Assembly (NCBI GenBank): GCA_947471115.1
Contig: CANIXX010000003.1
Coordinates: forward strand, 1 to 45,063
Source: Opitutaceae bacterium
Lineage (GTDB): Bacteria > Verrucomicrobiota > Verrucomicrobiia > Opitutales > Opitutaceae
Length of the DNA: 45,063 nucleotides
Reading direction: 5' to 3'
Numbering within the stretch: the first letter of the stretch is position 1; each line of letters begins with the position of its first letter. Below, piece by piece: positions 6,426 to 30,330 of the stretch. Below the pieces are notes generated by a model, which saw only the letters and a program-made list of their open reading frames with translations, was not told where the DNA came from and did no database searches. Position numbers and translations under genes: made by a program.

Positions 6426-6520
6426 GCCTGTGGCCCAGCCAAGGCCAACTTAATCGGGTATCCAACTCTCATGCTACTAATAGCATCTGGATTGTTACTT
6501 GAGCGGCATTGGGGCGATCC

Positions 6521-6873
6521 ACCGCAATCCAGTCAGATTGGTCCATGCGCATTTATGCCCATCGGCTCTTCTGCAGTCCCGGCGGATTGCGCCGTCGATA
6601 TTCCAAACGCCGGAGGACGTCACACGACAAAACCAAGTTGAGCGATGGCGTCCGTTGATGCTGAAATTTAGGCCAACGCCTCATTTCCGACCGGTTCAAA
6701 TTCGCGTCATTTACGCAAAGTTGTATGTTTTATGGCGCTTCAGTGAATATCCGAACGACGTTGCGAATGTTAAGGTGTGCTTAGTTTTAAGCACTACATC
6801 AGCTCAATCGCTAACCACTATGCATCCTTCCAACGTTCGCCTCAAATTAACCACAGCCGTTGCTTTATCCACT
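6521..6873 (+). repeat. Imperfect direct repeat copy 2 (leader + first codons of the PEP-CTERM gene)
   Basis: Counterpart of 3410..3764, covering about 300 nt upstream of ATG 6820 plus the start of the signal peptide. Confidence 0.8.
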
Positions 6874-8166
6874 CTCGCCGCCGCTATAAGCAGTGCCGCT
6901 GATATTACGGCAACGCTGACGGCGAACCCAACTGCCAATTTCAACCTGACGAGCGATTCGACGATCAGCGGCTCCACCGACCTCGCTCTATCTGGGGATT
7001 TCACCAATAGTGGGGCCAGCAACAGACTAACGGTCAATAACACAGGACTAACCACCTTTGCCGGGCCTGTGTGGATTAGTGAAAGCACCGCTAATCGCAG
7101 TCTCACGTTCAGCGGCACTGGGAACATCCTCATCAGTGGTGCGATCGGCAAAAACGCAGCCGGCGGGAGCGCGTCGACAAATGGAAATTTTTCTTATAGC
7201 GGCAGTGGAATCCTTACTTTGGCAGGTGCCAATACCTTCGGCGGAAGTATTGGCGTGAGTGGTGGCGGCACGGTCAGTGTGAGTAATCTCAGTACGGCCA
7301 CACCCACATCTATCTCCTTTTTTCGCATCGGCGGAGGTACTTCGACTAGCACCGGCCGATTGCTCTACACAGGCAGCGGAGAAACTTACAACAAGCAGAT
7401 CGGAGTCGGAACAGCTGTCGGAGACTCGGTCGGTATCATTGACCAAACTGGAACTGGGCAGCTCACTCTGAGTGGCGGTGTCACGGCATCCCATAGTGGC
7501 AATAAAACACTTATCCTTCAGGGCTCAACCAACGGCGCGGTCGCGGCGATCACCAAAGGCTTAAGCACCAGCTTTGCCCTCATCAAACAGGGCGCGGGCA
7601 CCTGGTCGCTCTCTGGAGTCAACGACTTCACCGGCACGACCACGGTTGAGCAGGGGACATTGACGCTGACGGGTTCACTTGCCAGCACTCGCATCGCGGT
7701 GGGCAACGGGGCGACCTTTGACTTCCAAAAATCAGGAACCAACGTTTTGACCAGAAACTTTACCCTGACCGAGGGTGCCTCGCTGATCGGCAGTGCTACC
7801 AACAGTTTTGCCTCCAGCGGAACCACCACGCTGGCGGCCGACCTCAGCGACGGGTTCACCGCGATCACCTTAGGGGCCACCTTCACTGCCTCAGGCATCC
7901 TCAACTTCGACTTAACTAATATATCTGAGGGAGTTTACGGATTGTTTTCCGGTACGACCCCGACAGGAGCGTTCACCAGCGTGGTCGGTACCGGTTTCAT
8001 CACCGCAGATAACTTCACGGGCACGGTGAACGGATTTAACTATTCTTTTAATAATAGCTCAAACACACTCTCGATTTCGGCAGTTCCTGAGCCGGCGACC
8101 TACGGTGCCTTGGCCGGATTGGGTATTTTGGGCTTTGCGGTTTACCGCCGCCGCCGGGCAAGCTAA
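6820..8166 (+). CDS. Autotransporter-associated beta-strand repeat protein with PEP-CTERM sorting signal
   Basis: Re-started at ATG 6820 (MHPSNVRLKLTTAVALSTLAAAISSAA signal peptide) rather than 6499; repeats such as GTGNILISG, GSGILTLAGANTFGG; C-terminus VPEPATYGALAGLGILGFAVYRRRRAS. Confidence 0.85.
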   Translation: MHPSNVRLKLTTAVALSTLAAAISSAADITATLTANPTANFNLTSDSTISGSTDLALSGDFTNSGASNRLTVNNTGLTTFAGPVWISESTANRSLTFSGTGNILISGAIGKNAAGGSASTNGNFSYSGSGILTLAGANTFGGSIGVSGGGTVSVSNLSTATPTSISFFRIGGGTSTSTGRLLYTGSGETYNKQIGVGTAVGDSVGIIDQTGTGQLTLSGGVTASHSGNKTLILQGSTNGAVAAITKGLSTSFALIKQGAGTWSLSGVNDFTGTTTVEQGTLTLTGSLASTRIAVGNGATFDFQKSGTNVLTRNFTLTEGASLIGSATNSFASSGTTTLAADLSDGFTAITLGATFTASGILNFDLTNISEGVYGLFSGTTPTGAFTSVVGTGFITADNFTGTVNGFNYSFNNSSNTLSISAVPEPATYGALAGLGILGFAVYRRRRAS

Positions 8167-8586: not shown

Positions 8587-9342
8587 TTATCGCGGCGCGG
8601 GAACGGCAGACGGAGTCGGCGGCATAGGGAGGTCGCCGACGGTTAGAATGCTGATATTATTAAACTCGGCGGTCATCGGGTAGGCTAGTAACAGCAAACG
8701 AGGGGCACTCAACTTAGGCAGGCCGGTTTTAACCGCCACCGGACGCCCATCCTCACTGCGTGTGGCGAAGATCTTAATCGGCATGAAGGTGGTGGCGCTA
8801 CTCACGTCCAAGTCGGCCGATTGATGGGGATTAATAGAAGCCTGAGTGCCCGCCAAGACCACCGCCAGTTTAACCGGACATAAATTATAAAAGCGCACAT
8901 GCTTATCTGCAATATCTCCACCCCAAAACTCAATGGGAGTAAACTGGTAAGGATAGGGAGAAAGGGCCCGATTATACCTGACCAGAAACAGAGCCCCTTT
9001 CCAGGCAGGAGGAAAACTCAGGCTGGCCAGGGTCTTGCGCTCCTCCCGTTCACCTTTCTTAACCGTTTTAAAAAGAGTCAGCGGCAGCCCCCGCCGGAAT
9101 TCGATTACCGGAGACTGCCCGCCAGGGCCGAGCAGAAGCTCATTTATACCAGTACCACTGTCCAGTAAAGCCTGCAGATCAGGTTCGGGTTGGCCGTCAG
9201 GCAGATCACCGGAGCTGACATATACAAAGCGAACCGGCAGAATCGACTGTGCACCGGAAGCCTCGGATGGTTGTCCGTGCATCAGCGTGCCGATGAACGG
9301 GATGGCCGCTATTATACAAATGGACTTAATTAGTTTATTCAT
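8587..9342 (-). CDS. Small secreted protein of uncharacterised family (paralog of 11489..12238)
   Basis: Re-started at MNKLIKSICIIAAIPFIGTLMHG. Shares FTPIEFWG, KHVRFYNLCPVKLAV, VKTGLPK and AYPMTAEFNNIS with the paralog. Confidence 0.75.
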   Translation of the reverse strand: MNKLIKSICIIAAIPFIGTLMHGQPSEASGAQSILPVRFVYVSSGDLPDGQPEPDLQALLDSGTGINELLLGPGGQSPVIEFRRGLPLTLFKTVKKGEREERKTLASLSFPPAWKGALFLVRYNRALSPYPYQFTPIEFWGGDIADKHVRFYNLCPVKLAVVLAGTQASINPHQSADLDVSSATTFMPIKIFATRSEDGRPVAVKTGLPKLSAPRLLLLAYPMTAEFNNISILTVGDLPMPPTPSAVPAPR

Positions 9343-9392
9343 AAAAAGGAATATTAGATTCAGGCGTAAACTGTGTTTATGCGTATTTTTGA

Positions 9393-11417
9393 CTAAAGTC
9401 GCGTGGCCGGTTGACCGGCATTTGTTTCCAGCCAGCCCGCCCACCCACCAGCGGGCTGCAGGCTCAATTTGATCGTCTCACCGGCGTGAACGAGGCGATT
9501 TTTTTTCACCGCCGAACGCTCGAGACCTGCTCCAGGAGCATCTTCAAAATAAGTAAGTATATAATCGGTCGCCGGCTTAAGGAAATCCAGTTTAACCGCC
9601 GTCTCTAAAGGCTGGTCCGCTGTCAAAGCGCCAAGAAACCAGCGCGTACCCTGGCGGCGAGCCACCCCGAGGTTTTGCCCAATCTCACCAAAAAGCATAC
9701 GCGACTCATCCCATGTGTCGGGCAGCTCACGCAAGAACTCGAGTTCGACCCCGCCGCGCGAACCGGCGTCATCCCAAGCAGAAAAACCTCCCCGGATCAC
9801 CGGCGCCGGATTGTACAACACCAGCATGTAGGCCATGTGATACATATTGCTGCGACCGGAAGTATAAATATGCGGAGTATAATCATAGGGGCCGGCTAGG
9901 CCACGCGTGAAAGGTAGGGCCAAATCATGGCTGACCGGTGGCTTATTCTCAGCCCCGGCCCCGGCCTCACAGGAGAGCAAATTCGGGTAAGTACGCCAGG
10001 ATCCATCCGGAAGGTATTCATCATGTATATTAAGAGTAAGTCGGTGCTGGGCAGCAGTGCGTAGCAACCGTAGCAGCCAGGCGGAATTTTCCTGGGTACC
10101 ATAATGCACAAAACCCGGCTTCAGCCCCTCCACCCCCCAGCGCGCCTGAGTGGCCATGACCAGATCCATGTCCTGCTTAGGCAAAGACCAACGGCTGTTA
10201 GCATACAGTGATAGACCCACGCCTTTGGCTTTGCCGTAGGCAATTAACGCAGGCATATCCAAATCGACCAAAATATCCACGCCCTGGGTTTTGGGATTGG
10301 GACGAAAAGGCACGTAGCCGGAAGCAACCCTTGTCAGGTCGCCGGTGGTGTTGGCCTCCCAGCCACTGTCCCGATACGCCGCCGGAACTTGCTCGCGATA
10401 GGCCGCCCGTTCCTCGTTCGTCCAGGGAGCCTCGGTTGCGTTCCAGCCCCAATCCAATTGGATGTATTTAAAGTTTTGCGCGGCGGCCCAATCGATCATT
10501 TTTTTCAATTGCCCCGTTTCCATCCGGCGTATGCCCGTATGTTTTTTAAAATTCCCAATAGCACTGAGCATTTTGCCAGTTTTAACCCACGAAAAATTAC
10601 CGGTTGCCGGTGGATTCAACGTGGCGATCAAGTTTTGATTGCGAACAAGATCGATCGCTTCACGACCAATTAAAAGCACACGCCATGGGGAGCAGATACC
10701 GGCATCGCCGCGATACTCACCCAGCAACCGACCGCTGACGCCTCCGTTGCTTTGGACTCCTTGCAAGCGGGGATAATCCCGGACGTCAGCTTCAAGGATC
10801 GCTGCATAGCCGGCAGGTGTGCGCACAGTGAGGGGCAGTTGCATCCATCCTTTATACTCGGCGAGTTTCACCGGGGCCTGAGGATAGATTCCCTCCGTTT
10901 TTTTGATCGGCCAGGCGACCGTATCCGGCACAAAGTTAAAAGCAATTTGCTCTTTGGTCAGTTCGACCGGTCCACCCGCTGTGCCGTCCACCCGGTAGCG
11001 CAAAGCGACACCCTCATCATAAGCGCGCAACTCGACTTGTACACGCCGTTCGGGAGTGCCGTTTTCGCGCAATTCAATCACCAGCGCATTATAACGATCG
11101 GGCAGCACCGCCTGCTCCCCGTATAGAGGCCGCCACATGTCGCGCACTTGCGTGCGTGAGGCGTTCACCTGCGCGAACTTGGTGGTGCGCTTCGGCTTCA
11201 GCTCCAAACTCATGGGCGAAGACACCAGCAATGGTTGCTGATGATAACTGACCGCATAAACCGGCTCCCCGCCCTCAAGCGTAAACGTCACCACCACGGA
11301 GCGATCGGGAGACTCCAGCACCTCGGTTGGCACCAAGGCAAAACCCCCTTGGGGAATCATGAGTGCGGAGAAGGCCGCAGCCAGTCGGATGAGGTTAGTT
11401 TTCATCAATTTGTACAA
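9393..11417 (-). CDS. Glycoside hydrolase family 97
   Basis: 674 aa ORF; SPDRSVVVTFTLEGGEPVYAVSYHQQPLL N-domain, FKYIQLDWGWNATEAPW, LNIHDEYLPDGSWRTYPNLLSCEAGAGAE, FTRGLAGPYDYTP; typical GH97 layout. Confidence 0.85.
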   Translation of the reverse strand: MYKLMKTNLIRLAAAFSALMIPQGGFALVPTEVLESPDRSVVVTFTLEGGEPVYAVSYHQQPLLVSSPMSLELKPKRTTKFAQVNASRTQVRDMWRPLYGEQAVLPDRYNALVIELRENGTPERRVQVELRAYDEGVALRYRVDGTAGGPVELTKEQIAFNFVPDTVAWPIKKTEGIYPQAPVKLAEYKGWMQLPLTVRTPAGYAAILEADVRDYPRLQGVQSNGGVSGRLLGEYRGDAGICSPWRVLLIGREAIDLVRNQNLIATLNPPATGNFSWVKTGKMLSAIGNFKKHTGIRRMETGQLKKMIDWAAAQNFKYIQLDWGWNATEAPWTNEERAAYREQVPAAYRDSGWEANTTGDLTRVASGYVPFRPNPKTQGVDILVDLDMPALIAYGKAKGVGLSLYANSRWSLPKQDMDLVMATQARWGVEGLKPGFVHYGTQENSAWLLRLLRTAAQHRLTLNIHDEYLPDGSWRTYPNLLSCEAGAGAENKPPVSHDLALPFTRGLAGPYDYTPHIYTSGRSNMYHMAYMLVLYNPAPVIRGGFSAWDDAGSRGGVELEFLRELPDTWDESRMLFGEIGQNLGVARRQGTRWFLGALTADQPLETAVKLDFLKPATDYILTYFEDAPGAGLERSAVKKNRLVHAGETIKLSLQPAGGWAGWLETNAGQPATRL

Positions 11418-11488
11418 AAAACGAATTCATTATAAAACCCAAGGTCAGCCCAAGACCATAATAGATATTATGCGACACGCAGACTGGA

Positions 11489-12238
11489 TCACTTCGAGGC
11501 AGGAGGAGGCGGAGGCATCGGCACGTTACCGATAATCAAGGTGCTGATATTATTAAACTCACTGGTCATGGGATAAGCTATAATCAGGGTGCGCGAGTCC
11601 CTTGGTTTGGGCAGACCGGTTTTAACCACCATCTTCCAACCCTCCTCACGCAGACAGGCAATCTTGATGGGCAGGAAGTCGACCGCCGCACTTACGTCGA
11701 TATCCGCATGTTTTTTGGCTTCGACAATCGATTGCCCTCCGGCCAATTGGACGGCTAAATTGGCAGGGCAAAAATTGTGAAAGCGAACGTGTTTCTCGGG
11801 GATGGTTTCCCCCCAGAATTCGACCGGCGTAAATTGAAAGGGAAAGGGGGCCAACTCGGGGGCATAGGTCACCAGAAACAAAACCCCTCGCCAGTGGTTG
11901 GGGATATCGACGCTGCCAACTTTGCGCTGCTCCATCTTATCTTTGACTTTGACCTTGCGGAAAAGCGTGATGGTTTCCGGACCATAGTATTCGATAATCG
12001 GAGAGCGCCCGCTGCTGCCGAGTGACAGATCATGGATCACCTTGCCGCTGGCCAGTGAAACCCGCAGGTCAGGCTCCGGCTTGTCGTTTATAAGCAGACC
12101 GGTACCGACATATATAAATTGCACCATCACCGGCGGCTTTTTATCGGCAGGCGGGAGCTCTTGCGCGTTCCCTGTAGCTATACATCCGCACGCAATGAAT
12201 AGACTTTGAATGATTAAATATCGAAGGGACTTAGCCAT
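11489..12238 (-). CDS. Small secreted protein of uncharacterised family (paralog of 8587..9342)
   Basis: 249 aa, N-terminal signal; overlaps the 3' end of the upstream 1261-aa gene by 25 nt. Confidence 0.75.
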   Translation of the reverse strand: MAKSLRYLIIQSLFIACGCIATGNAQELPPADKKPPVMVQFIYVGTGLLINDKPEPDLRVSLASGKVIHDLSLGSSGRSPIIEYYGPETITLFRKVKVKDKMEQRKVGSVDIPNHWRGVLFLVTYAPELAPFPFQFTPVEFWGETIPEKHVRFHNFCPANLAVQLAGGQSIVEAKKHADIDVSAAVDFLPIKIACLREEGWKMVVKTGLPKPRDSRTLIIAYPMTSEFNNISTLIIGNVPMPPPPPASK

Positions 12239-15200
12239 TTGAAGGAGATGATTTTAAACCTACGGCCGAAGGTTTGGTTAATAGAATTCACGGCAGTGGG
12301 CCTTTGCCAGGCCTCTTGTCCGGCTGAGGTATTATCCACATAGTCCGGAAGGCGCTGCACCACTGCTTCACACCAGGCACGACTTTGGACCTGCGGATTG
12401 GCCTTAGTACTATTCACTGCATCCAACACATCGCCGTAAGTGCGGATCACGAAGGTGTCAGAGCGTGCACTGAGAACCGGACCAAGGGTTTGCAAGACGT
12501 CAGCCTGTGTCACCCAACCAGGCACGCCCTGCGAGAGGCGGTTGACGCTGATCGGGGTCGCCAATGACCTCCCCGGCAGGGGCAGACTCGTCGTCGAGAA
12601 AACTTCAAAGTCCGTGCTATTGGAACTGAACGCACCATTGGGGCGTTTGGCCGGGAGCGCCTGTTGGGTGGCATCCAAGGCATTGGCCAACGCCCCCATC
12701 GTGCGCTCATCAAAGGTGGTGGCAGGATTGTCCACCAGAGCCCGATTGACGAAGTCGGCCAAGCAGACAAAGGGGCCACGGTTTTTCACCTCAGTGACGA
12801 TGGCCGTCGCCAGTGAGTCGAGCTGATCGCTCGTAAGAAAACGATAACCTTTGAAGCTGTTTGGGGCCGAATCGGCGCTGGACGCGGCGGTCATAACGCT
12901 GGTTTCGTCGGGGGGATAGAGTGTGCGTGAAAACGGGGCTTCATCGGAACGTGCAGTTGCTCCGACCGGCACGTTAAGTGTACTGCCCAGGATTGCCCGC
13001 CAGGCCTCAACCGAAGTTGAATTGATATTAAAGGCCCCGGTGGTTAATAACCCCGCCCCAGCATGCGCAGTGGTCCGCAGATCCGCCGGGTCCAGGTTGG
13101 TGGACGTCTGGATCAAACGGGAATTGGGCAGTATAGACGGAATGGCCCCGGTGGCCGGAACCCCGGAAAAGAAATAACCATCCCACAAGGCCCGATTAAA
13201 CAGGTAAGAATGATCATAAAAGCCAAAGCCTAGACGAGGCGCAGGACACTGATAAGCAACTGCTCCGTAGCCGACTTGGAGATCCGCCCGTGAATTGCCA
13301 ATCGGATTGGCGGGGCTGAATCGACTATTTTGCTCCTTCCTCACCTCGCGGTAGGCGTTGACGTGCTGCAACGCACCAAGCGATAAAATACGGGTTTCGG
13401 GTCGAGGCACATCATAAAAAATAGCACCTTGGCTATTGACCGTAAAATCATAGCCAAAATAGGCCTTGCCGCCTTCCGCTGGAGTGTCGGCCACGATGCT
13501 GTAGGATGAACTTGGCACGGCATTGACGGTGTCGGCAGCTGGTTCTACTCCAATGGTTCCATACGGGTTTTTATAGCTGTAAACGAACGGGGTTTCGCCT
13601 GATGAAATTACGGCACGGGGATTATAGCCTTCCGCCCAACGAATTTTTCCAGGGGTTCTATAATTATAGGAATTAAGGGTGGTTCTCAGCACAATCTTGA
13701 TCGGGAAATGACTGGCCACCTCCGTGCTGACGGGCGCCGAACCCAAGTTCTTATAAGCGTTCTCTTTTGGTGTCGTCTTCCCGGCCTTAAACGTGGGATC
13801 CTGTACCGATCTGATATTTTGCACCAAGTTACCCAATGCTTTATTAGTTGGACTCGTGGAAGTAAACTCACGCAGAGTCAGCCCCAGACCAGCGATATAA
13901 TCATCCACATCAGGGGCTTTTTCATTATGAGCGGGCATTGAATTCGATCTGCTGGAATAAAAAACAAAAAAGTACTTTTCCTGATCGCCTGGGTCGGCGG
14001 CCACTGGGAGTGCGGGCAGGGAAAACGAAGGCGACTTTACGACAATGCCATAGCCATTGGATGCTCCCACGCCCCAGCCACGGGTCAGAGTCGGGGTGGC
14101 CGGATCGATCACGGTGGTCGGGAAATCAGCATCAAGCGCATAGACATAAGCGGAACCCGGGGACATGACCCCAGTATTAAGATAAAAATCACACGCCCGG
14201 TTTCTCGACGACACCACATTCGGAGTGTATGGCCCCCAGTTGCCGGAAGTGCCGGTAATAGGATATGTTATAGCATATTTTGGAACAGCTGAATTTGCTG
14301 TATTATTATAAAAATAAGGACTGGCGATATTCGCCGCACTGCTGATCGCATTGGCCGCAAACGAGGGAAGAAGCCCCTTCATGACGCGGGCGTAAAAAAT
14401 ACTGGGCCTGACAACCGAATCATCGGAAAAATCAATCTGGCCGTAATATTGAGCATTGTTGAGGGTTATATTATAGGGATTCCATAGTACGACTGCAGGG
14501 ATATGGCGCAGCTCCAAGTGAAAATTCCCCGAGCCCTCTGGCACGAGCTTCGCCTCGGTGTACATCTGAAAGAGGGCGACCACTGGACTCACCCCGTGCT
14601 GGGTCGTATCACCAGGGATATCGACCCGATGGGCCCGCTGTGCAATGGTTGCACTGGCGCCTGTGCCCGTAACGGAATCAGCTAATTGATAATACGAACG
14701 CAGTAATTGCCAGGTCGGCCCCTTGCCGTCGAAGCCTTGAGTGGGATCGGGGTTCCAGGTGGGATTAACCGGATGCTTAGTCAGTTGCCAGATCGGCCCG
14801 GTGGGGGCGTCGACGGCAGTGGTGCCGGTTTTGAACGCTGCGGTCAGGTCCTGGCGTAAACCGCCACGCAATGTGTCGGTGAGTACGCCGTGGCTATAAG
14901 TAGTCAGATCGTGAAAGCGCAGTTTCCGGGTGGTACCCAGCACCGCCTTTTTGGCGGTATCGGCTCCAATCAACGCGAGCTGATTAGAATCCAAAATTTT
15001 GCTCACTGCCAAGCTGTTGGCCGGGAAATAGGTTTTAAGCAGGGTACCATTGGTGAAATTGCTGTCGTCATCGATCAGTTCGGTGGCGACGCGTTGAGCC
15101 ACCTGGACCCGGGCACGCAACTGGGCCTCGGTGGGCGAGATGGTGGCGCAGGCCGGATTGTAGGGATCCTGCAGGTTGATGCGGGCCTTGACCCCTTCAT

Positions 15201-15999
15201 CGCCAACCCAGTAGGCGTAACGACCAATCGGGATCTGCGTAGCCCCCCCCAGGCCAGGGATCAGATTACCGCCCGCCTTGATGTCCACCAGCGGAGCCAC
15301 CACATAGCCAGACTCAGCCCCCGAAGTTTTCCCGCAACTATTCGGACCGGCGAGGAGCACACCCGGAACACTACCAATGGTATAGCTGGTCAACGCATCC
15401 TGGGTGATGGCGGGCGACGGGCTGATGGTTACGTCGGGAGCGAACGCCAAGCCGGTGGCCGCCGTGGTGATTTGGCCAAAGTTATCCGCCGCGGTTGACG
15501 CGGTGAAGGTCACTTTTTCATTGCCGCTCACCAGCCAATTCAGCAGTTGCGGGGTGCTGGTAGTGGAGGCTGGATCGGTATAGGAGGGCTCAACCGAGGA
15601 AGACTGGTTATTACCCCACACACCGGTCCACAGTTTAGCGCCATTGGTCGCGGTCGTGGCCACTCCAGTCAGATTGGTGGCAAAGGCCTGCGCGGTCGTG
15701 GTGACACGCTGATCAGGACCGGCGGTTTGTTGCAACTGGCCAAGGGCGATATTCAGCGCCAGCAGCGCATTGCTGCGGGCCTTGTCGAGTTGCTGGTAGT
15801 TGGTGGCGATTTGGACTTCGACGCGGGTCAAGGCAGCTATACTGACCATCAGCAAAACCAGAAATGAAATCAGCACGATGGTGATGAGTAGCGTAAAGCC
15901 GTTGCGGCGCGAAGTGCCGGCCTGACGCAATAAACGGGACCGAGATGAATTTTGCACAGAAGTTGGTGGGATAGGTGGAAACGTGAAACCAGAAGGCAA
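12214..15999 (-). CDS. Giant prepilin-like/PilX-like protein, resembling Verru_Chthon cassette protein A
   Basis: 1261 aa; N-terminal NGFTLLITIVLISFLVLLMVSIAALTRVEVQIATNYQQLDKARSNALLALNIALGQLQ (prepilin-like hydrophobic start), extended C-terminal region. Confidence 0.6.
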   Translation of the reverse strand: MPSGFTFPPIPPTSVQNSSRSRLLRQAGTSRRNGFTLLITIVLISFLVLLMVSIAALTRVEVQIATNYQQLDKARSNALLALNIALGQLQQTAGPDQRVTTTAQAFATNLTGVATTATNGAKLWTGVWGNNQSSSVEPSYTDPASTTSTPQLLNWLVSGNEKVTFTASTAADNFGQITTAATGLAFAPDVTISPSPAITQDALTSYTIGSVPGVLLAGPNSCGKTSGAESGYVVAPLVDIKAGGNLIPGLGGATQIPIGRYAYWVGDEGVKARINLQDPYNPACATISPTEAQLRARVQVAQRVATELIDDDSNFTNGTLLKTYFPANSLAVSKILDSNQLALIGADTAKKAVLGTTRKLRFHDLTTYSHGVLTDTLRGGLRQDLTAAFKTGTTAVDAPTGPIWQLTKHPVNPTWNPDPTQGFDGKGPTWQLLRSYYQLADSVTGTGASATIAQRAHRVDIPGDTTQHGVSPVVALFQMYTEAKLVPEGSGNFHLELRHIPAVVLWNPYNITLNNAQYYGQIDFSDDSVVRPSIFYARVMKGLLPSFAANAISSAANIASPYFYNNTANSAVPKYAITYPITGTSGNWGPYTPNVVSSRNRACDFYLNTGVMSPGSAYVYALDADFPTTVIDPATPTLTRGWGVGASNGYGIVVKSPSFSLPALPVAADPGDQEKYFFVFYSSRSNSMPAHNEKAPDVDDYIAGLGLTLREFTSTSPTNKALGNLVQNIRSVQDPTFKAGKTTPKENAYKNLGSAPVSTEVASHFPIKIVLRTTLNSYNYRTPGKIRWAEGYNPRAVISSGETPFVYSYKNPYGTIGVEPAADTVNAVPSSSYSIVADTPAEGGKAYFGYDFTVNSQGAIFYDVPRPETRILSLGALQHVNAYREVRKEQNSRFSPANPIGNSRADLQVGYGAVAYQCPAPRLGFGFYDHSYLFNRALWDGYFFSGVPATGAIPSILPNSRLIQTSTNLDPADLRTTAHAGAGLLTTGAFNINSTSVEAWRAILGSTLNVPVGATARSDEAPFSRTLYPPDETSVMTAASSADSAPNSFKGYRFLTSDQLDSLATAIVTEVKNRGPFVCLADFVNRALVDNPATTFDERTMGALANALDATQQALPAKRPNGAFSSNSTDFEVFSTTSLPLPGRSLATPISVNRLSQGVPGWVTQADVLQTLGPVLSARSDTFVIRTYGDVLDAVNSTKANPQVQSRAWCEAVVQRLPDYVDNTSAGQEAWQRPTAVNSINQTFGRRFKIISFKWLSPFDI

Positions 16000-21945: not shown

Positions 21946-23112
21946 ATGCTTACCCCCGCATCCCCTCCCCCTCCCGTCCAAGCGAGCGAGCCCACGATCG
22001 CGATTTTAGTTGAGACCGGTTCATCCTGGGGCCGTCGCCTGATTACAGGCATTCTGGATTATTCCCGACAGAATGGCCCTTGGCACGTTCACATTGAGCC
22101 CATCGGGCCGGGCGAACCGGCACGGCTACCGGCTGGCTGGCATGGGGATGGCGTGATCGCACGGATCAATTCCACCGAACTCTACGAACAACTGAAGCAA
22201 TTGGGCGTCCCTGCGGTCAACACCACCGCGATTAACATTGCGGGCGATACATACCCGCGGATTACCACCAATTTTCAGGACTCCGCGCAACTCGCCGCCT
22301 CGCTCTTTTGGTCGCGGGGTTTCACCCGGTTTGTGTACATGGGCGACGCCACCCTGCCGTACGTGCAAGACCAGATCGGTGCGTTTGCACGCAGCTTGGC
22401 TACACGCGGCCAAACTTGCCTGCAGCACAACCCCATCGAGTCAGTGGAAAAGCTGGCGGAATGGATGCAGACACTGCCCAAACCGATCGCCGTATATTGT
22501 TGGGGGCCGAGCATTGGGCGCAAAGTAATCGACGCCTGTCGCCTGGCCGGAATCCGTGTCCCTCATGACGTTGCCGTTTTGGGGGCCGATTATGATGATT
22601 TGCTCAGTGAGGCCTCCTACCCTCCTCAGTCGGGCATCCGCTTGGCAGCAGAACAGATCGGGATGACCGCCGCCGCCCTGCTCGATGGCATGATGAAAGG
22701 TCGCAAACCCGAAAAGATGCACTGGGTGATTCCGCCATTGGGGGTGATTGAAAAACTCTCCACCGATACGATGGCGGTGGCGGATCGGCGCATGGGTGCT
22801 GTCATGCGCTACATTCTCGACCACTACCAAGAGCCGATTTCGGTGGAAGATATCCTCAAGGCCAACCCCATGAGTCGGCGCTCGTTGGAAGGGAAGTTCC
22901 GCCAAACCTTTGGCTGCTCGGTGGCGGAACAAATCCGGCAGATTCGAGTGAACCAAGCCCGCCTGCTACTCGCCACCACCGATGATCCCGTGACCCTGAT
23001 CGCGGAAAAATGCGGCTTTTCCACCTATAATTACATGGGGCGGGTGTTTCAGGCTGACACGGGCCAGTCACCGCGGGACTACCGGATGACTTGTCGCGCG
23101 CGACGCATTTAG
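21946..23112 (+). CDS. XylR-like transcriptional regulator (LacI-type sensor domain + AraC-type HTH)
   Basis: TIAILVETGSSWGRRLITGILDYSRQNGPWHVHIEP..., VAVLGADYDDLLSEASYPPQSGIRLAAEQIG, C-terminal AraC HTH (NPMSRRSLEGKFRQTFGCSVAEQIRQIRVNQARLLL...CGFSTYNYMGRVFQADTGQSPRDYR). Confidence 0.9.
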   Translation: MLTPASPPPPVQASEPTIAILVETGSSWGRRLITGILDYSRQNGPWHVHIEPIGPGEPARLPAGWHGDGVIARINSTELYEQLKQLGVPAVNTTAINIAGDTYPRITTNFQDSAQLAASLFWSRGFTRFVYMGDATLPYVQDQIGAFARSLATRGQTCLQHNPIESVEKLAEWMQTLPKPIAVYCWGPSIGRKVIDACRLAGIRVPHDVAVLGADYDDLLSEASYPPQSGIRLAAEQIGMTAAALLDGMMKGRKPEKMHWVIPPLGVIEKLSTDTMAVADRRMGAVMRYILDHYQEPISVEDILKANPMSRRSLEGKFRQTFGCSVAEQIRQIRVNQARLLLATTDDPVTLIAEKCGFSTYNYMGRVFQADTGQSPRDYRMTCRARRI

Positions 23113-23223: not shown

Positions 23224-26200
23224 TCACGGCAGGTTAGCCTGTAGACGCATAAATCGGCTCGGTTTGGCTGGATCGCTAAGATTACATCGATCCGTGATCA
23301 CCACCTGCCGCGTGAGCCCAGTGCCGGTTTCGCTGGCTTGATAGTTGGGCGATGCGGTGAAGGCATTGCCGGCAAGGCTGGTGGCGGCAATTTCCCACGG
23401 CCCGGTTGGTGAATCGGCAGATTGAATCGTAAGCGTGATATCGGTGAGTGCAGGTATACGCCTCAGGGTGAGCGTCAAATGTCCGCCAGAATACGCCACC
23501 GTAGGGAGTAAGCCTGTAGCCGTCGCGACGGGTGAGGCCGCACCGAGTGCGTAGGCGAGCAGATTATTCACGCCATCGCCATTGGGGTCGGCGCTGGGAG
23601 CCTTTTGGGCCGCATTCAGCCCGGAAGGGCTATTAATCCAAAAACTGAAGGAATTGGGTCCACCGGTGGTAACGATCAGTGCGCCGCTGCCGGTAATACG
23701 ACCTAAACCGTTGGCGCTAGAATAGGTGCCTGCCGGTTTCCAGACACCGTTAAGGCGCAGGGCCGTGATTGTCTGCGCGGTGGTCAAACTGAGTGTACCG
23801 GCGTCGAGCATCACCCAGGAGGAAGCGTTGAGCGCACTGGAGCCAATTGCCAAAACTCCACCCGTCACCGTTGTGTTTCCCGTGTAGTTGTTGGCGGCAC
23901 CACTCAGGTTGAGTGTACCTGTCCCGACTTTGACCAGAGAGAGGTTGCCCGTAACCCGACCGGAGAAGGTGGTCGTTACCGTCTGATTCAGCGTCAACGT
24001 CGCCGGCATGACGGAGGAGTTGGTAAGCATGCTGACTTGGGTGGCGTTGGTGCTGGTGCGTTTGATGCCGGCGAGGGTCTGGTTAAACCCGGCGAGATCG
24101 AAGCTGGTACTGGTCGCCACCGTGCTCGAGCCGAGATCGACCACGGTGGTAACAGGCAGCGTATTCGTGGCACCGAGCTTAAGGGTGCCGCCGGCGATAT
24201 TGGTCAGACCCGTGTAGGTGTTGGTGCCGTACAGGGTCAGGCTGCCCGTGCCGTCTTTGGTGAGAGTTCCCGAAGTGGTGGCGATGCTGCTGGCGATGAG
24301 GATGTCGCCCGACCCGCTGAGGGTCAGATTGAAGGTGTCACCGGTGATCGAGCCGGGGTTACTGAGGTAGAGGGTACCCGAATCGGAGTGGATCCGGCTG
24401 GCGGCGCTCATGGTGATCAGGCCTCCGTAGGTGTTGTTGCCGGAAATGTTGCGTAATGCGCCGGTGGAGGAAATGCCTCCCCCCGCCAGGGTGATGGGTT
24501 CGTTTCCGACAACGATGCCGCCTTGGAGCTGAAGCACCCCGCCGCTGGCCACGGTGGTGCCGGCGGCGATGGTGCCCAGAGCGGAGCCGTTTTGCGCATT
24601 CAACACGCCCGTGCTGGTGATCGAAGTGGTGCCGGTGTAATTGTTGACCCCGGAAAGGATCAGGGGGCCCGCGCCGCTTTTGGTCAGGTTGGCCGTCCCG
24701 TTGAGGTTGGCCGAGATGATCGCCGTGCCGCTGCCGTTGGAGATCGAGTAGGAGGTGCCCGTGAGACTGCCGTTTTTCAAGGTGTCGTCGCTAGCGGCGG
24801 CCGTCAGGGTCAACGCCGCCACAGTCCGGGTGGTGCCGCCAAGATCTAGGGCGCCGCCGCCAAGGACGAGCGCATTGGTCGACGCACCCAGCGTGCCCTT
24901 ACCAGAAAGCAGCAAGGTACCGCCAGTAATCGCGGTTTTGCCGAGGTAGGTGTTAACCCCGCTCAGCAGCCAGGTGCTGCTGTTTTGCTTGTATAGGGTG
25001 GTCGTCGCAGATCCGCCTGAAATGATGCCATCAATTCGGCTGCCGGAATGAGTCCCGCTCAAATAGAGTCCCTGGGTTCCGGCATTGGAGGCCAAAATGA
25101 CGGAGGTGGTAACAATGAGCGCCGCCGTAGTGGGGTTGAGGGTCGTGCTGCGATTATAGCCCTGATTCAGACTGCCGACGGCCAGCCGGTAGCCGTGAGC
25201 GCCGGTGATATCGACGGAGTAGTTCTGACTGCCGTTGCTGTCGATATTGCCGATTTTCAGGGTCTGGTTCGCGCCTGTGGAAGTGTTGTCCACGTTGATC
25301 GCGAGTTTGGCCTCAGGGGCGGCCATTTGAATGTTATAACCCGAAGCTGGCCCAAAAGTGCCCGTAACATCGGAGCGCAAATCCAGCACCGCCGCGCCCG
25401 CAACGGTATTGGCGGTCTGGATGGCGTTGAGTCCTACATTGGCACCGGCGGCGTTGAAATTCGTGAGTTTCAAGGTGCCGGCCGTGATCGTGTTAACCCC
25501 TGAGTAAGTATTCGCCGCAGTGAGGGTGAGCGTGCCCGTGCCGCCTTTGGTTAATGTGCCCGATCCGGTGCCGATCACGCCGTTAATCATCGTATCGCCC
25601 GCGCCTCCGACGGTCAGCCCGAAGCCCGCACCGGTAATCCTCCCCGGATTACTCAACGTGAGCATCGAGCCGACGGTGTCGGAATTGATCTGGGTTGCCC
25701 CACCGAGGGTAATCAATCCGCCAAACGTGTTGTTACCCGAGAGGTTGCGCAGGACACCACCGGAGGCAATGCCGCTGCCGGTGATCATCAAGGGTTCGCC
25801 GCCGATCGCGATGTCGCCCTGGAATTGCAGGGCGGCGCCGTTTTCCACGACCGTGCCCGCCGAGGTTACCCCCAAGGCGGTGGAGTTTTGAACCGAAAGC
25901 GCCCCTGTCTGCACCCACGTCGCTCCGGTGTAAGAGTTGGCGCCAGCGAGACCGACCACGCCCTGACCAGTTGAGGAGGTAATGTAAAGAGAGCCTCCGC
26001 CGCTGAGCGCGCCGTTGAGCTGAAGCACGCCATCGCTGGCCGTCGTAAGGGTGTAACCGGCGGCGGTTTGGGTGAGTGTGCCGCGCAGCGTGAGATTGCC
26101 CTGACCGGCACTAATAGTGGAGTCGCCGGCCAGTGTAATAGGGCCGGAAAACGCCATGGTACTGGTATCGGCGACGCCCAGTGCTCCGAACTGGCCGTCG

Positions 26201-29200
26201 GCACCGGCACCGGCAATCGTCAGGGCTTCAGGCGCGCTGTAATTAACGGCTTGAGCGAGCAAGAGGCTCGCACCGGCATTGACGATGGTGCCGGAACCGC
26301 TGGCCGTGGAGCCCAACGACCCCGACGCGGCAATCACGAGCCCACCTGCATTGATAGTGGTCAGGCCGGTGTAGGTATTGGCGGCGGCGAGCACGGGGAA
26401 ACTCGTGCCCGTTTTGGTCAACGGCCCCGTGCCAGTGATCGCGCCCGCCAAGCGGAATTCGGCGGTGCCGTTGCCGGAAATCGCCAGGCCTGAGCTGAGT
26501 GCAATCGGGGTGTTGAGCGTATAAGCCAGGCCAGGGCCCTTGGCCGTGAGGGCGAGTTCGGGCGCGAGTGACTTGTTGGGAATGAGCTTAAGCGAACTGC
26601 CGGCCAGGGTGACCGTGGACTGACCGCTCGCTGGACCTGCACCAGCCAAAGTGAGGGCGTGGCAAGTTAAGCCGGCGATATCCTGCTGGAGCAAGTAAGT
26701 GCGTGCTTGCAGCGACGTGCTGGGAAAAAGGTCCAGTTGCGCGGACGCCCCTCCTGTTGGGACGCCATTTTTCCAGTTGGCTGAATTAGACCACATAGCC
26801 GTGGCGCCCACCGAGGGCTGACCGGTCCAAATCGACTCCGTGGGGGTGACCGCCACGGCTACTGTCGCCGAGGCCGTTTTTCCCGAGGCGGCATCGGTAA
26901 CCGTGTAAGTAAAGGACGGGGCCGCGACAATCGCGTTGGCTGGAATAAAGCGGGCGGTGTAACCGTCCGCCAGTAGCGTAACACCGCCCTGCACCGCGCC
27001 GGAGACAGCGAAGCTTAATTGAGCGGGGAGAGAATCCCCATCGGTCACCAAGGTGCGCAGGTCGATATCCACCGGGCCGGTCACCGGGCCCATGGCGACA
27101 CCCGGGGAAGCGACGGGCGCTTCGTTGGCATAGGTCATCCATGCATCAAGTGTTTCAACAGCCGGCAAAGCGGCATCGGAGGGAATGGCTTCTCCATGGC
27201 GCAGGGGGTGGAAATATACGCTGATGGTGGTGGTAACGTTCGGCGTCGTCGTGGTTTGAATCGTGAGTTTTTTAAAATCCGAATTGTCCCGGTTTTGGGG
27301 GGGGCTGAGGACAAATGCCTTCGCATCGCGCAGAGTAAATTTGTAGGTATTTGTGCCAAGGATGCGGCCCCACAGGCGGTCGGCGCCTTGGGTCAGCAAG
27401 ACCGACTTCCCGTCAGCAGCGATGTCCACCTGGGTGACCACATTCCATTTATAGGGGGTAACCGTGGTGGTTTTAACGCCCGCCTTGATGATCGACTGCG
27501 TTTTCGTATAAACGGTCGTGCCGTCGGGCACGGTGCCATCGCCGGTTCTAACAAAATAGCCCGTGCTGTCAGCCTGGCCGGGGGCGGGCTCGGTCGTGGT
27601 CGTTGCGGTACTAAAGGTGGTCAGGCTAGTTTGCACATGCATGAACCAATAAGTCGCCGCCACATCCGTGCGCTTTATCTCGTCTTGTACGATCACGTTG
27701 CGCTTGCCGTTAATCATACGCACGCCGCGGCGCACGCTGATGCAGTTATTTTTCGCCGGATCGTTATAGGCGGGCCTGAGATCCACCACACTCGTGGCGC
27801 GGTCGCCATCAGGCCGTATACTCCAGAAAATCACTGGCGAAGCGGTATTGGTCTGGCCAGCCCCCCCCCTCGCCCCCGTCGTTGAAGGACTAAAAACTAA
27901 AGTATTCCCCCCCTCGGCCCGATCCGAGTATAATGTCGATCGGTCAAAATTAAAATCATTATATACATAACGATCGCCACCGATTTTGTGAATCCAGCGC
28001 TTGCCCAGGGCATCGAGCACGATGGAGCCGGCATCCCAGATAGCATGCCCACCAACACTCGAATTGCCCTTTAATCCCACAAAGGTGGAGTCGGCGTCGC
28101 GGTTCTGGCGCATGACAGTCACCTCTCCGCACGACAGCTTATCGGGATTGGGAGCCGAACCGCGAAACTGGCTGTTCATCGGGATGGCGGCGAGATCCGC
28201 CTTCGTGCCGCTCTCATCCCACCACAAAACGGCAAGCGGATAGCCCGTGTAGTAGGTGTAATCAATAGTATTGCGTTTGTGGACCGCGTAGGCGGGCCGG
28301 TTGAAGCGCCGCGCCAGCCAAAACATTTCCCAGGTGCAACCTTCCTCTCCTCCGCTTTGGTTGTCGGCCACATTAAAAGAGAAGCCAGACGGACCGGTAT
28401 TCTGAATAGGGTATAGGCCCTGTTCTGCAACGCCGCGCTGAGTACTGATGCCGAAATCACTACCCAGGCAGCCCTCCAGCAATGCCATCGCCTTCACGAA
28501 ATTATCGGTCTGGTAGAGCCAGTAGCCCTCGACATTGCCGCCGTTGTCGATCGTCACCCGATCCTGCCAAGCCTGGAGCGAGTCGATTGACTGGCGCAGC
28601 ACCCTGCGCGCCTGTGCCGCGTTCACCGGATCGTCATTACCGATTGCGAGTGCACCGCTGATATTTGCTCCATTACACACGGCGTTCCAGTTGCCGTGGG
28701 TCGTCAACCACCAGGCGTTAGTATTAAATGACCTCGCGCTGAAAGCGAGCCCCTGGCTGGTTAGGGCGGTGAGCAGGGTGGTGCGTTGGGCCGCAGTCCA
28801 ATATGGATAGAGCCAGTCATAACCAAATGCCATTCCTAGCGTTAACTCGGCATAGCCCAACCCATTGTCAGTGCTAACCCACGTGCTCCAGTTGGTGGCA
28901 GCAAGATTATTCAGGTCGGTCCAAGCCCGCTGGGCATAGGTGTTATCCCCGGTCATATGCCAGGCCATGGCCAGGATGCAGACACGTTCCTGAAGATCGC
29001 GCCCCGCATAAATCGCCCCTCTTGGATGATTGATAAAAAGGAGATCGGCGCCCGTTTTGTATTGGTTAGCTTTGGTAATGACTTTCTTTAACTGCAGCCC
29101 GAAGGGTGACTGCGGGGACACCGTTTGATACTGGGTTTTCAGCCAGGCAAAGCGCTCCGGGCTAGCCAACAGGCGCGGGTGCCCGCTGCTCAAGCGATCG

Positions 29201-30330
29201 AACAGGGCGGATTCGGCTGGCTGGCTCTGATCAATGCCGCTCGGCACCAGGTAATCGCCAGGAATGACCGACCACGCGGAACTTCCCGGCGGCTGCCAGG
29301 CTACCGCAAAATGGCTGCTGCCAGCGCCTGCCTTATGCAGGACGCGCAGGGCGTACTGTTGGCCGGCGATGAGGTTAACCGTGATGGAGGAAACCTGCCC
29401 GGTTTGCCGGGTGTAGTCGTAGGGCGTGGTCGCGCTGGTAACCGTCGCAAGCTGCGTGTACGAGGCAGCGTCGATGGCGACGCCGGCGGTGGTACTAAGT
29501 TCAAGACTAACGGCATCGCCGCCGGAAACCGCAAAGCGGTAAGCTCCGCTCACCGCAGGCGCAAGGTATCCGCTCAGGCGGCAGCCGGAGTTCGGCGCCC
29601 AACTGGAGAGCACCGATTCACTGCGGGTGATCACCTCGCGGTAACTCGGCCTGTTGGATGTATAAGCCGTGGATGCGGTCAGATTGTTGATTGCCGTGCC
29701 GGGGACGTTCAACCACGCCTCCTTCATCAAACCACCGCGCTGCGGAGTAACGGCGGTCGGATATAGGCAGGCCCTCGGGATGACCTCGCGCAGCATCTGC
29801 GGGGTGGACCACTCCAGCTTTACCTCGGCCTGGCTAGTGAACTGCCTGTATTCAATCCGGATGGCATACCTGCGACCTGTCTCCAGCGGCAGGGCGCAGC
29901 GCAACTCCTTGGCAGAAGTGCTCACCGAGACGGTGCGCGAAGCGACGAGTTGGCCGTCAATCCAGATGCTCGCCGTATCATCCGCAGTAAGGTAAAAAGT
30001 ATAATAGCCACTCGCGGGGGGCTGAATTTGACCGCTCCAGATCGCCGAATAATTCGTCGCTGTGGCGATTCCGGTACCGGCTGGTACCGACGTGCCCCAG
30101 TTGAAATTTATTTGGGCGTCAACCCGCACCCCGACAGTAGGCGCGGTGAAGCTAGTATTATTGTAATACGAACCTGTTAAGCCTGTACCTTGTGCAAACA
30201 CCGGAAGCCCGGTTAACCAAGCAATATAGAAAATGAAGACAGTCAGGGAGTAACTGCCAAGGCGTAAGCAGGGAGAAGACATACGGGGGGGGGGTAACCG
30301 ACAGCTAAGGGGTAGTGCTGAGGCTTTCAA
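23224..30330 (-). CDS. Giant secreted protein: PA14-like domain(s), heparinase II/III / alginate-lyase-like region, many autotransporter-associated beta-strand repeats
   Basis: 2368 aa; GLTGSYYNNTSF...YYTFYLTADDTASIWIDGQLV (PA14), HPRLLASPERFAWLK...GNWNAVCNGANISGALAIG... (heparinase-like), repeated GTLTLTAANTYSGVNTITAGTLKL units, C-terminus SPSGLNAAQKAPSADPNGDGVNNLLAYALG. An alternative ATG at 30282 lies just downstream of a C10 tract. Confidence 0.85.
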   Translation of the reverse strand: MKASALPLSCRLPPPRMSSPCLRLGSYSLTVFIFYIAWLTGLPVFAQGTGLTGSYYNNTSFTAPTVGVRVDAQINFNWGTSVPAGTGIATATNYSAIWSGQIQPPASGYYTFYLTADDTASIWIDGQLVASRTVSVSTSAKELRCALPLETGRRYAIRIEYRQFTSQAEVKLEWSTPQMLREVIPRACLYPTAVTPQRGGLMKEAWLNVPGTAINNLTASTAYTSNRPSYREVITRSESVLSSWAPNSGCRLSGYLAPAVSGAYRFAVSGGDAVSLELSTTAGVAIDAASYTQLATVTSATTPYDYTRQTGQVSSITVNLIAGQQYALRVLHKAGAGSSHFAVAWQPPGSSAWSVIPGDYLVPSGIDQSQPAESALFDRLSSGHPRLLASPERFAWLKTQYQTVSPQSPFGLQLKKVITKANQYKTGADLLFINHPRGAIYAGRDLQERVCILAMAWHMTGDNTYAQRAWTDLNNLAATNWSTWVSTDNGLGYAELTLGMAFGYDWLYPYWTAAQRTTLLTALTSQGLAFSARSFNTNAWWLTTHGNWNAVCNGANISGALAIGNDDPVNAAQARRVLRQSIDSLQAWQDRVTIDNGGNVEGYWLYQTDNFVKAMALLEGCLGSDFGISTQRGVAEQGLYPIQNTGPSGFSFNVADNQSGGEEGCTWEMFWLARRFNRPAYAVHKRNTIDYTYYTGYPLAVLWWDESGTKADLAAIPMNSQFRGSAPNPDKLSCGEVTVMRQNRDADSTFVGLKGNSSVGGHAIWDAGSIVLDALGKRWIHKIGGDRYVYNDFNFDRSTLYSDRAEGGNTLVFSPSTTGARGGAGQTNTASPVIFWSIRPDGDRATSVVDLRPAYNDPAKNNCISVRRGVRMINGKRNVIVQDEIKRTDVAATYWFMHVQTSLTTFSTATTTTEPAPGQADSTGYFVRTGDGTVPDGTTVYTKTQSIIKAGVKTTTVTPYKWNVVTQVDIAADGKSVLLTQGADRLWGRILGTNTYKFTLRDAKAFVLSPPQNRDNSDFKKLTIQTTTTPNVTTTISVYFHPLRHGEAIPSDAALPAVETLDAWMTYANEAPVASPGVAMGPVTGPVDIDLRTLVTDGDSLPAQLSFAVSGAVQGGVTLLADGYTARFIPANAIVAAPSFTYTVTDAASGKTASATVAVAVTPTESIWTGQPSVGATAMWSNSANWKNGVPTGGASAQLDLFPSTSLQARTYLLQQDIAGLTCHALTLAGAGPASGQSTVTLAGSSLKLIPNKSLAPELALTAKGPGLAYTLNTPIALSSGLAISGNGTAEFRLAGAITGTGPLTKTGTSFPVLAAANTYTGLTTINAGGLVIAASGSLGSTASGSGTIVNAGASLLLAQAVNYSAPEALTIAGAGADGQFGALGVADTSTMAFSGPITLAGDSTISAGQGNLTLRGTLTQTAAGYTLTTASDGVLQLNGALSGGGSLYITSSTGQGVVGLAGANSYTGATWVQTGALSVQNSTALGVTSAGTVVENGAALQFQGDIAIGGEPLMITGSGIASGGVLRNLSGNNTFGGLITLGGATQINSDTVGSMLTLSNPGRITGAGFGLTVGGAGDTMINGVIGTGSGTLTKGGTGTLTLTAANTYSGVNTITAGTLKLTNFNAAGANVGLNAIQTANTVAGAAVLDLRSDVTGTFGPASGYNIQMAAPEAKLAINVDNTSTGANQTLKIGNIDSNGSQNYSVDITGAHGYRLAVGSLNQGYNRSTTLNPTTAALIVTTSVILASNAGTQGLYLSGTHSGSRIDGIISGGSATTTLYKQNSSTWLLSGVNTYLGKTAITGGTLLLSGKGTLGASTNALVLGGGALDLGGTTRTVAALTLTAAASDDTLKNGSLTGTSYSISNGSGTAIISANLNGTANLTKSGAGPLILSGVNNYTGTTSITSTGVLNAQNGSALGTIAAGTTVASGGVLQLQGGIVVGNEPITLAGGGISSTGALRNISGNNTYGGLITMSAASRIHSDSGTLYLSNPGSITGDTFNLTLSGSGDILIASSIATTSGTLTKDGTGSLTLYGTNTYTGLTNIAGGTLKLGATNTLPVTTVVDLGSSTVATSTSFDLAGFNQTLAGIKRTSTNATQVSMLTNSSVMPATLTLNQTVTTTFSGRVTGNLSLVKVGTGTLNLSGAANNYTGNTTVTGGVLAIGSSALNASSWVMLDAGTLSLTTAQTITALRLNGVWKPAGTYSSANGLGRITGSGALIVTTGGPNSFSFWINSPSGLNAAQKAPSADPNGDGVNNLLAYALGAASPVATATGLLPTVAYSGGHLTLTLRRIPALTDITLTIQSADSPTGPWEIAATSLAGNAFTASPNYQASETGTGLTRQVVITDRCNLSDPAKPSRFMRLQANLP
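24175..25905 (-). repeat. Duplicated ~140-aa beta-strand-repeat module (two copies, approx. 25905-25470 and 24610-24175)
   Basis: NSTALGVTSAGTVVENGAALQFQGDIAIGGEPLMITGSGIASGGVLRNLSGNNTFGGLITLGGA... versus NGSALGTIAAGTTVASGGVLQLQGGIVVGNEPITLAGGGISSTGALRNISGNNTYGGLITMSAA...; boundaries approximate. Confidence 0.75.

Follow-up and report, generated by a model that had tools for sequence, protein, structure and literature searches.

In this work, we showed that a giant prepilin-like gene of an Opitutaceae bacterium and the overlapping gene of a small secreted protein (small A) are one copy of a previously unnamed gene pair found across Verrucomicrobiota. Both genes lie in the 45,063-nt stretch of DNA that was analysed as a whole (the window). 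At a probability of about 0.58, the giant and small A would work as a coupled module of tip pseudopilin and partner on a T2SS pseudopilus that serves a carbohydrate locus.

All four genes of the locus are co-directional on the minus strand, in the order giant, small A, GH97 and small B. The layout given by the sequence-only reading stood in its positions, in the lengths of 1261 and 249 aa and in the 25-nt overlap, but small B has 251 aa, not 252. The features are as follows.

12214..15999, minus strand: giant, putative GspK-like minor pseudopilin, ORF of 1261 aa with a TTG start at 15999
15820..15999, minus strand: class III (prepilin) leader and hydrophobic helix of the giant, ...TSRRNG/FTLLITIVLISFLVLLMVSIAALTRVEVQ
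13417..14376, minus strand: central region of the giant, residues 542-861, from the conservation blocks and the model
12217..12576, minus strand: conserved C-terminal core of the giant, residues 1142-1261, from alignments
12214..12238, minus strand: 25-nt overlap of giant and small A, from the sequence
11489..12238, minus strand: small A, 249-aa secreted protein with a Sec-type signal peptide and two predicted Ig-like domains, from the sequence, the AlphaFold2 model and fold matches
9393..11405, minus strand: GH97 gene, ORF 9393-11417, read from an ATG at about 11405, with PF14508, PF10566 and PF14509
8587..9342, minus strand: small B, 251-aa paralog of A (47% identity end to end) with an ATG start and no giant adjoining

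The TTG start of the giant is preceded by GGAGG 11 nt upstream. No clear Shine-Dalgarno sequence was found in the stretch upstream of small A, and its start ATG spans the codons of a conserved K-W near the end of the giant; together these suggest translational coupling from the giant to small A. A promoter and terminator scan of the locus gave matches at chance level and is no guide to operon structure. The cluster is flanked by a gene for a PEP-CTERM protein with passenger repeats (6499-8166, plus strand) and by one for a very long protein with autotransporter-type strand repeats (23224-30330, minus strand). A regulator with a periplasmic-binding-protein-like domain and an AraC-type helix-turn-helix (21946-23112, plus strand) lies near GH43 and FAD oxidoreductase genes.

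Matches to the small-family profile were found in 59 of 388 genomes of the phylum. A giant tail lay directly upstream of all 29 sampled small genes and of 39 of 40 further ones (68/69 over both samples); for the 40, a script scored 31, and 8 of its 9 misses show the giant tail by eye. The sole exception among the 40, a small-family gene without a giant directly upstream, was L311 (G213:C93:21200-23200). Counted from the giant's side, a small gene came next in 71 of the 78 loci of named genomes, while inspection of the remaining seven revealed no convincing small-gene candidate adjoining, so the partner is not strictly required. Cerasicoccus and Luteolibacter, both culturable, appeared in a scan of genome contigs with an alignment of the giant's C-terminus. 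Every giant of the window's GTDB family with its 3' end covered (n = 23) was followed by a secreted-type ORF of 230-280 aa, starting at -22, -8 or -1, or a few to about 60 nt past the giant's end. The small profile detected seven copies in the window genome, of which six follow giants and one is small B, and each of the six giants there whose 3' end is intact has a small gene behind it. The small proteins had been proposed as dedicated partners of the giant gene, and the counts from both sides agree with this; the neighbourhood survey did not find the family mostly away from giants. In other genomes, a 270-aa secreted protein adjoining the giant (L171:6379-7191 and L174:6738-7559, both minus strand) gave 9.4 and 8.6 bits with the small profile, and its sequence is perhaps that of a diverged small partner.

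By sequence comparison, giant and small gene are passed on together and rarely change partners: starting from multi-paralog genomes, the best giant and best small matches in another genome agreed in 46 of 53 cases (10.1 expected), and nearest neighbours of giant and small agreed in 55 of 99 pairs overall and in 36 of 42 with a small match above 40% identity. The pairs in this test were chosen for adjacency. The arrangement resembles the SusC/SusD-type paralogous pairs, which belong to polysaccharide loci of Bacteroidota, in that many co-inherited, diverged pairs occur per genome, often beside carbohydrate genes. However, SusC and SusD proteins are unrelated to the giant and small proteins, and no sign of transport was seen for the giant-small pair.

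A tree of 47 family members joined small A and small B as sisters (support 100/99). Because of this sister position and their 47% identity, their resemblance is evidently not chance, and the two are paralogous as had been claimed. Searches of Pfam and NCBIfam matched neither protein, which agrees with the earlier statement that they could not be assigned to a known family; the searches likewise placed the small family in no enzyme family, and no DUF4397 Pfam match appeared among 25 members at E 0.5. The AlphaFold2 model of small A (47-row alignment, mean pLDDT 85) is all-beta after the signal peptide. Its best Foldseek matches, tandem Ig-like sandwiches, were the two-domain extracellular region of PepT1/PepT2 (E 1.4e-6) and two pithovirus DUF4397 models (E 4.9e-7 and 9.8e-6, TM about 0.46-0.50); these share only 8-13% sequence identity with small A, whose sequence matches no Pfam model. 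Given the all-beta model and these fold matches, the small protein is most likely a secreted tandem Ig-like (DUF4397-like) binding or chaperone protein. An enzyme was considered and rejected, as no family matched and Ig-like domains lead the structural hits.

Among pseudopilins, GspK is the type without Glu5. The cleavage context of the giant is RRNG/FTLLITIVL (G34/F35) with Ile, not Glu, at residue +5, and the marks of GspK, i.e. a class III leader, a G/F site and no Glu at +5, are all present in it; most of the giant relatives shown also have the G/F site and a non-Glu residue at +5. As in GspK, a large domain follows the helix, but the giant is three to four times GspK's size and falls far under the GspK model cut-off: NF037980 (T2SS GspK) matched residues about 33-110 only, with 17.9 bits (E 0.0017) against a cut-off of 130. 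A 900-aa relative reached E 3.7e-4, and the best relative tested gave 20.1 bits, also below the cut-off. PDB sequence searches with the giant and with both profiles returned nothing usable. When the AlphaFold2 model of residues 62-1261, a confident one (pLDDT 78.7, pTM 0.86), was compared with PDB structures, GspK (3ci0_K) was the top fold match, though not significant (E 1.3), and XcpX (5vtm_X) was listed, also not significant. The 17.9 of 130 bits and the E of 1.3 weaken the place of the giant in the preferred reading. The giant is conserved at its ends (0.66 for residues 62-101, 0.48-0.61 for residues 1142-1261), and its C-terminal core carries the motifs ARSDTF.IR.YG, RAWCEAVVQR and a terminal FGRRFKIISF(K/R)WLSPxDI. 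The centre, residues 542-861, is the most variable and insertion-rich part, with conservation of 0.12-0.26 per 40-residue block, and is predicted to be beta-rich, partly at low confidence in the AlphaFold2 model.

The sequence-only reading had likened the giant to component A of the Verru_Chthon cassette, a prepilin-like protein of about 1200-1300 aa whose N-terminus and C-terminal strand are like those of the giant, and whose partners B, C and D (TIGR02598, TIGR02599, TIGR02596) resemble I, J and H pilins. A distant N-terminal likeness stands, but TIGR02600 (Verru_Chthon_A) gave only 21.6 bits against a cut-off of 332.3, over residues 34-94 only; within NCBIfam this is nearly the same stretch as the GspK match, and a GspK-like description is as good. 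The remark that no B, C or D partner is visible held, as none is in the window gene list and TIGR02598 was not found anywhere in the window genome. The locus could be a divergent Verru_Chthon cassette that lost its B, C and D genes and counts the small gene as a fifth, so far unrecorded component. The N-terminal match would fit such an origin, as would the C-terminus YRFRIIN.K.F.P of TIGR02600 proteins, similar to the giant's, and the weak matches of short pilins in related cassettes to TIGR02596, TIGR02598 and TIGR02599. We nevertheless regard it as quite unlikely in view of the low score, the absence of TIGR02598 from the genome and the make-up of true TIGR02600 cassettes, in which A occurs together with B, C and D and, at the loci examined (G261, G272), the small-family gene is missing. 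The giant was rejected as a Verru_Chthon A protein on score, on its absent partners and on the lack of a small gene in true cassettes, and its sequence features are better described as those of a very large GspK-like tip pseudopilin.

The position of GspK after G/H/I/J-like genes is matched by the giants of related cassettes, not in this window, where the gene list contains no short prepilin genes and the giant adjoins no pilin genes. Six Opitutaceae genomes (L316-L320, L324), mostly with one small-family copy each, share the order acs (acetyl-CoA synthetase), two to five short pilins, giant and small gene. The short pilins are GspG/H/I/J-like; because those of L317 match GspG (TIGR01710), GspH (TIGR01708), I/PilV-like (PilV/TIGR02598) and J-like (TIGR02599/GspJ) models, the giant stands at the GspK position there. 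It is possible that this cassette is the ancestral form. Many giants stand alone, with no Glu5-type pilin genes nearby in 107 of 122 cases. Further differences from GspK are the Ig-like secreted protein gene that comes next and the many copies per genome.

At least seven giants are present in the window genome, on different contigs, with the 5' part found in seven places and the 3' end in six. The N_methyl model detected only four Glu5-type prepilins in this 318-contig draft, which is 93% complete and could lack other pilin genes. All four belong to one conventional gspGHIJK operon on contig C2. It encodes GspG (107.6 bits, over the cut-off), H, I, J and a GspK of the conventional kind (46.5 bits), and one of its genes is weakly GspM-like; assembly ATPases are also present in the genome. 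As one G/H/I/J set was found, the giants, if they are pilus subunits, would share the C2 set or use a machine unrecovered in the draft. GspK caps the pseudopilus tip complex, and the substrate interacts with the tip (PMC4471445). At least seven giants beside a single G/H/I/J set lead to a hypothesis of tip swapping and suggest exchangeable giant tips on one secretion pilus. In its full form, one T2SS pseudopilus would take many giant tips, each with its Ig-like partner and each matched to a carbohydrate locus, and swapping would retarget the machine to other glycans or enzymes; we put this forward tentatively and consider it doubtful. The preferred reading is weakened by the conventional GspK that the genome already carries besides its giants, and by the place of the window giant away from pilin genes.

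According to the preferred reading, the giant and small A form a two-gene module that is conserved in Verrucomicrobiota and apparently coupled in translation. The giant would be a very large GspK-like minor pseudopilin, with a core that is conserved at either end and a large centre that is variable and predicted to be beta-rich. After Sec export, small A would partner its particular giant, either as a periplasmic chaperone or as a co-subunit of the tip. The giant may then cap a T2SS pseudopilus built from the single G/H/I/J set detected in the genome, and its variable centre at the tip may serve the adjoining carbohydrate locus by capturing a glycan-related substrate or enzyme. Small B would be a duplicate of A with GH97 in between.

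Alternatively, the small protein may be purely a periplasmic chaperone or assembly factor outside any filament, with the giant a membrane-anchored surface protein independent of T2SS. The strict gene order with coupling, the tandem Ig-like domains of the small protein and the many giants that stand alone are all compatible with this, and Foldseek gave a weak match to the pilus chaperone Caf1M (E 0.013, TM 0.17). The Caf1M match is not specific, however, and the conserved order of pilins, giant and small gene in single-copy genomes favours a pilus role, so that we consider a chaperone without a filament rather unlikely.

The variable centre of the giant between its conserved ends also raises the possibility that the pair acts as an adhesin on the cell surface or at the pilus tip, its binding face varying under diversifying selection; the carbohydrate link would then reflect attachment to glycan surfaces and not secretion. 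Minor pilins acting as adhesins have precedent (PMC4471445), and in G218 (family f10, putatively Akkermansiaceae-like) the intact copy and the extra giant copies have identical blocks in common, while full copies differ mainly in the centre. Domain-family searches, on the other hand, recognised no binding domain in the giant, and rearranged copies were examined in detail in one genome only; we regard an adhesin as possible, if somewhat unlikely. The three G218 copies with identical blocks are located at L170:501-4400, L171:7587-11498 and L171:11786-14731, and one copy, without its 5' part, is inverted about 300 nt from an intact one. From the sequence, the arrangement is suggestive of silent cassettes by which the giant is varied.

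The GH97 protein has its N, catalytic and C domains above cut-off (PF14508, PF10566, PF14509), while NF053844 was below cut-off, and by these matches it is a putative retaining alpha-galactosidase-like enzyme. Small B begins about 50 nt past the GH97 stop codon. With GH97 lying between A and B at short gaps, the enzyme and both small proteins could be a functional unit of their own in which the small proteins partner the enzyme. This is very improbable, because no GH97 adjoins the most closely related pairs in three genomes (G134, G041, CSMAG_1313) and because the survey, in which the family pairs with giants and not with GH97, largely refutes it. GH97 as functional centre was also rejected on the related pairs without it. 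In the tree, the related pair of G134 branched off before A and B split, and tandem small genes without GH97 occur elsewhere. The simplest account of the sequences would be that the small gene was duplicated, with GH97 now between the copies and B a lineage-specific duplicate of A.

It had been suggested that GH97 was inserted between, or is deployed with, the assembly. A dedicated link of this kind is weakened by the three genomes without GH97 and by the apparent origin of B as a local duplicate, but a general association with carbohydrate genes stands. Pairs in the window genome adjoin GH3, GH28, SSF and MFS transporters and a LacI regulator. The 106 neighbour proteins of named loci belonged most often to families of esterases, glycoside hydrolases and lectin-like domains, whereas control regions gave housekeeping families instead; the comparison is qualitative, over the 25 commonest families, without a statistical test. 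One pair of the window genome, on C40, has housekeeping genes around it; in the tree it clusters, at weak support, with copies from single-copy genomes.

A literature search, which mostly lacked subscription journals and preprints, found no paper on the giant-small pair. The genome of Verruconatronum alginivorum, which like the window organism belongs to Opitutales, was reported to encode 67 PulG-like pseudopilin homologues, one of them in an alginate-induced operon (PMC13274419); the text consulted describes neither a giant nor a small partner. Pilins and pseudopilins were also found enriched in two Verrucomicrobiae populations (PMC12487129). It is still not settled how Verrucomicrobiota handle the many polysaccharides targeted by their genomes, and most of their many pilin-like genes lack an explanation. 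Within this set, the present work defines a fixed gene pair: its partner family is unannotated, its tip subunit is of a recognisable type, and the same genome offers a single candidate machine. What had been a vague expansion of prepilin genes thereby becomes a module that can be tested.
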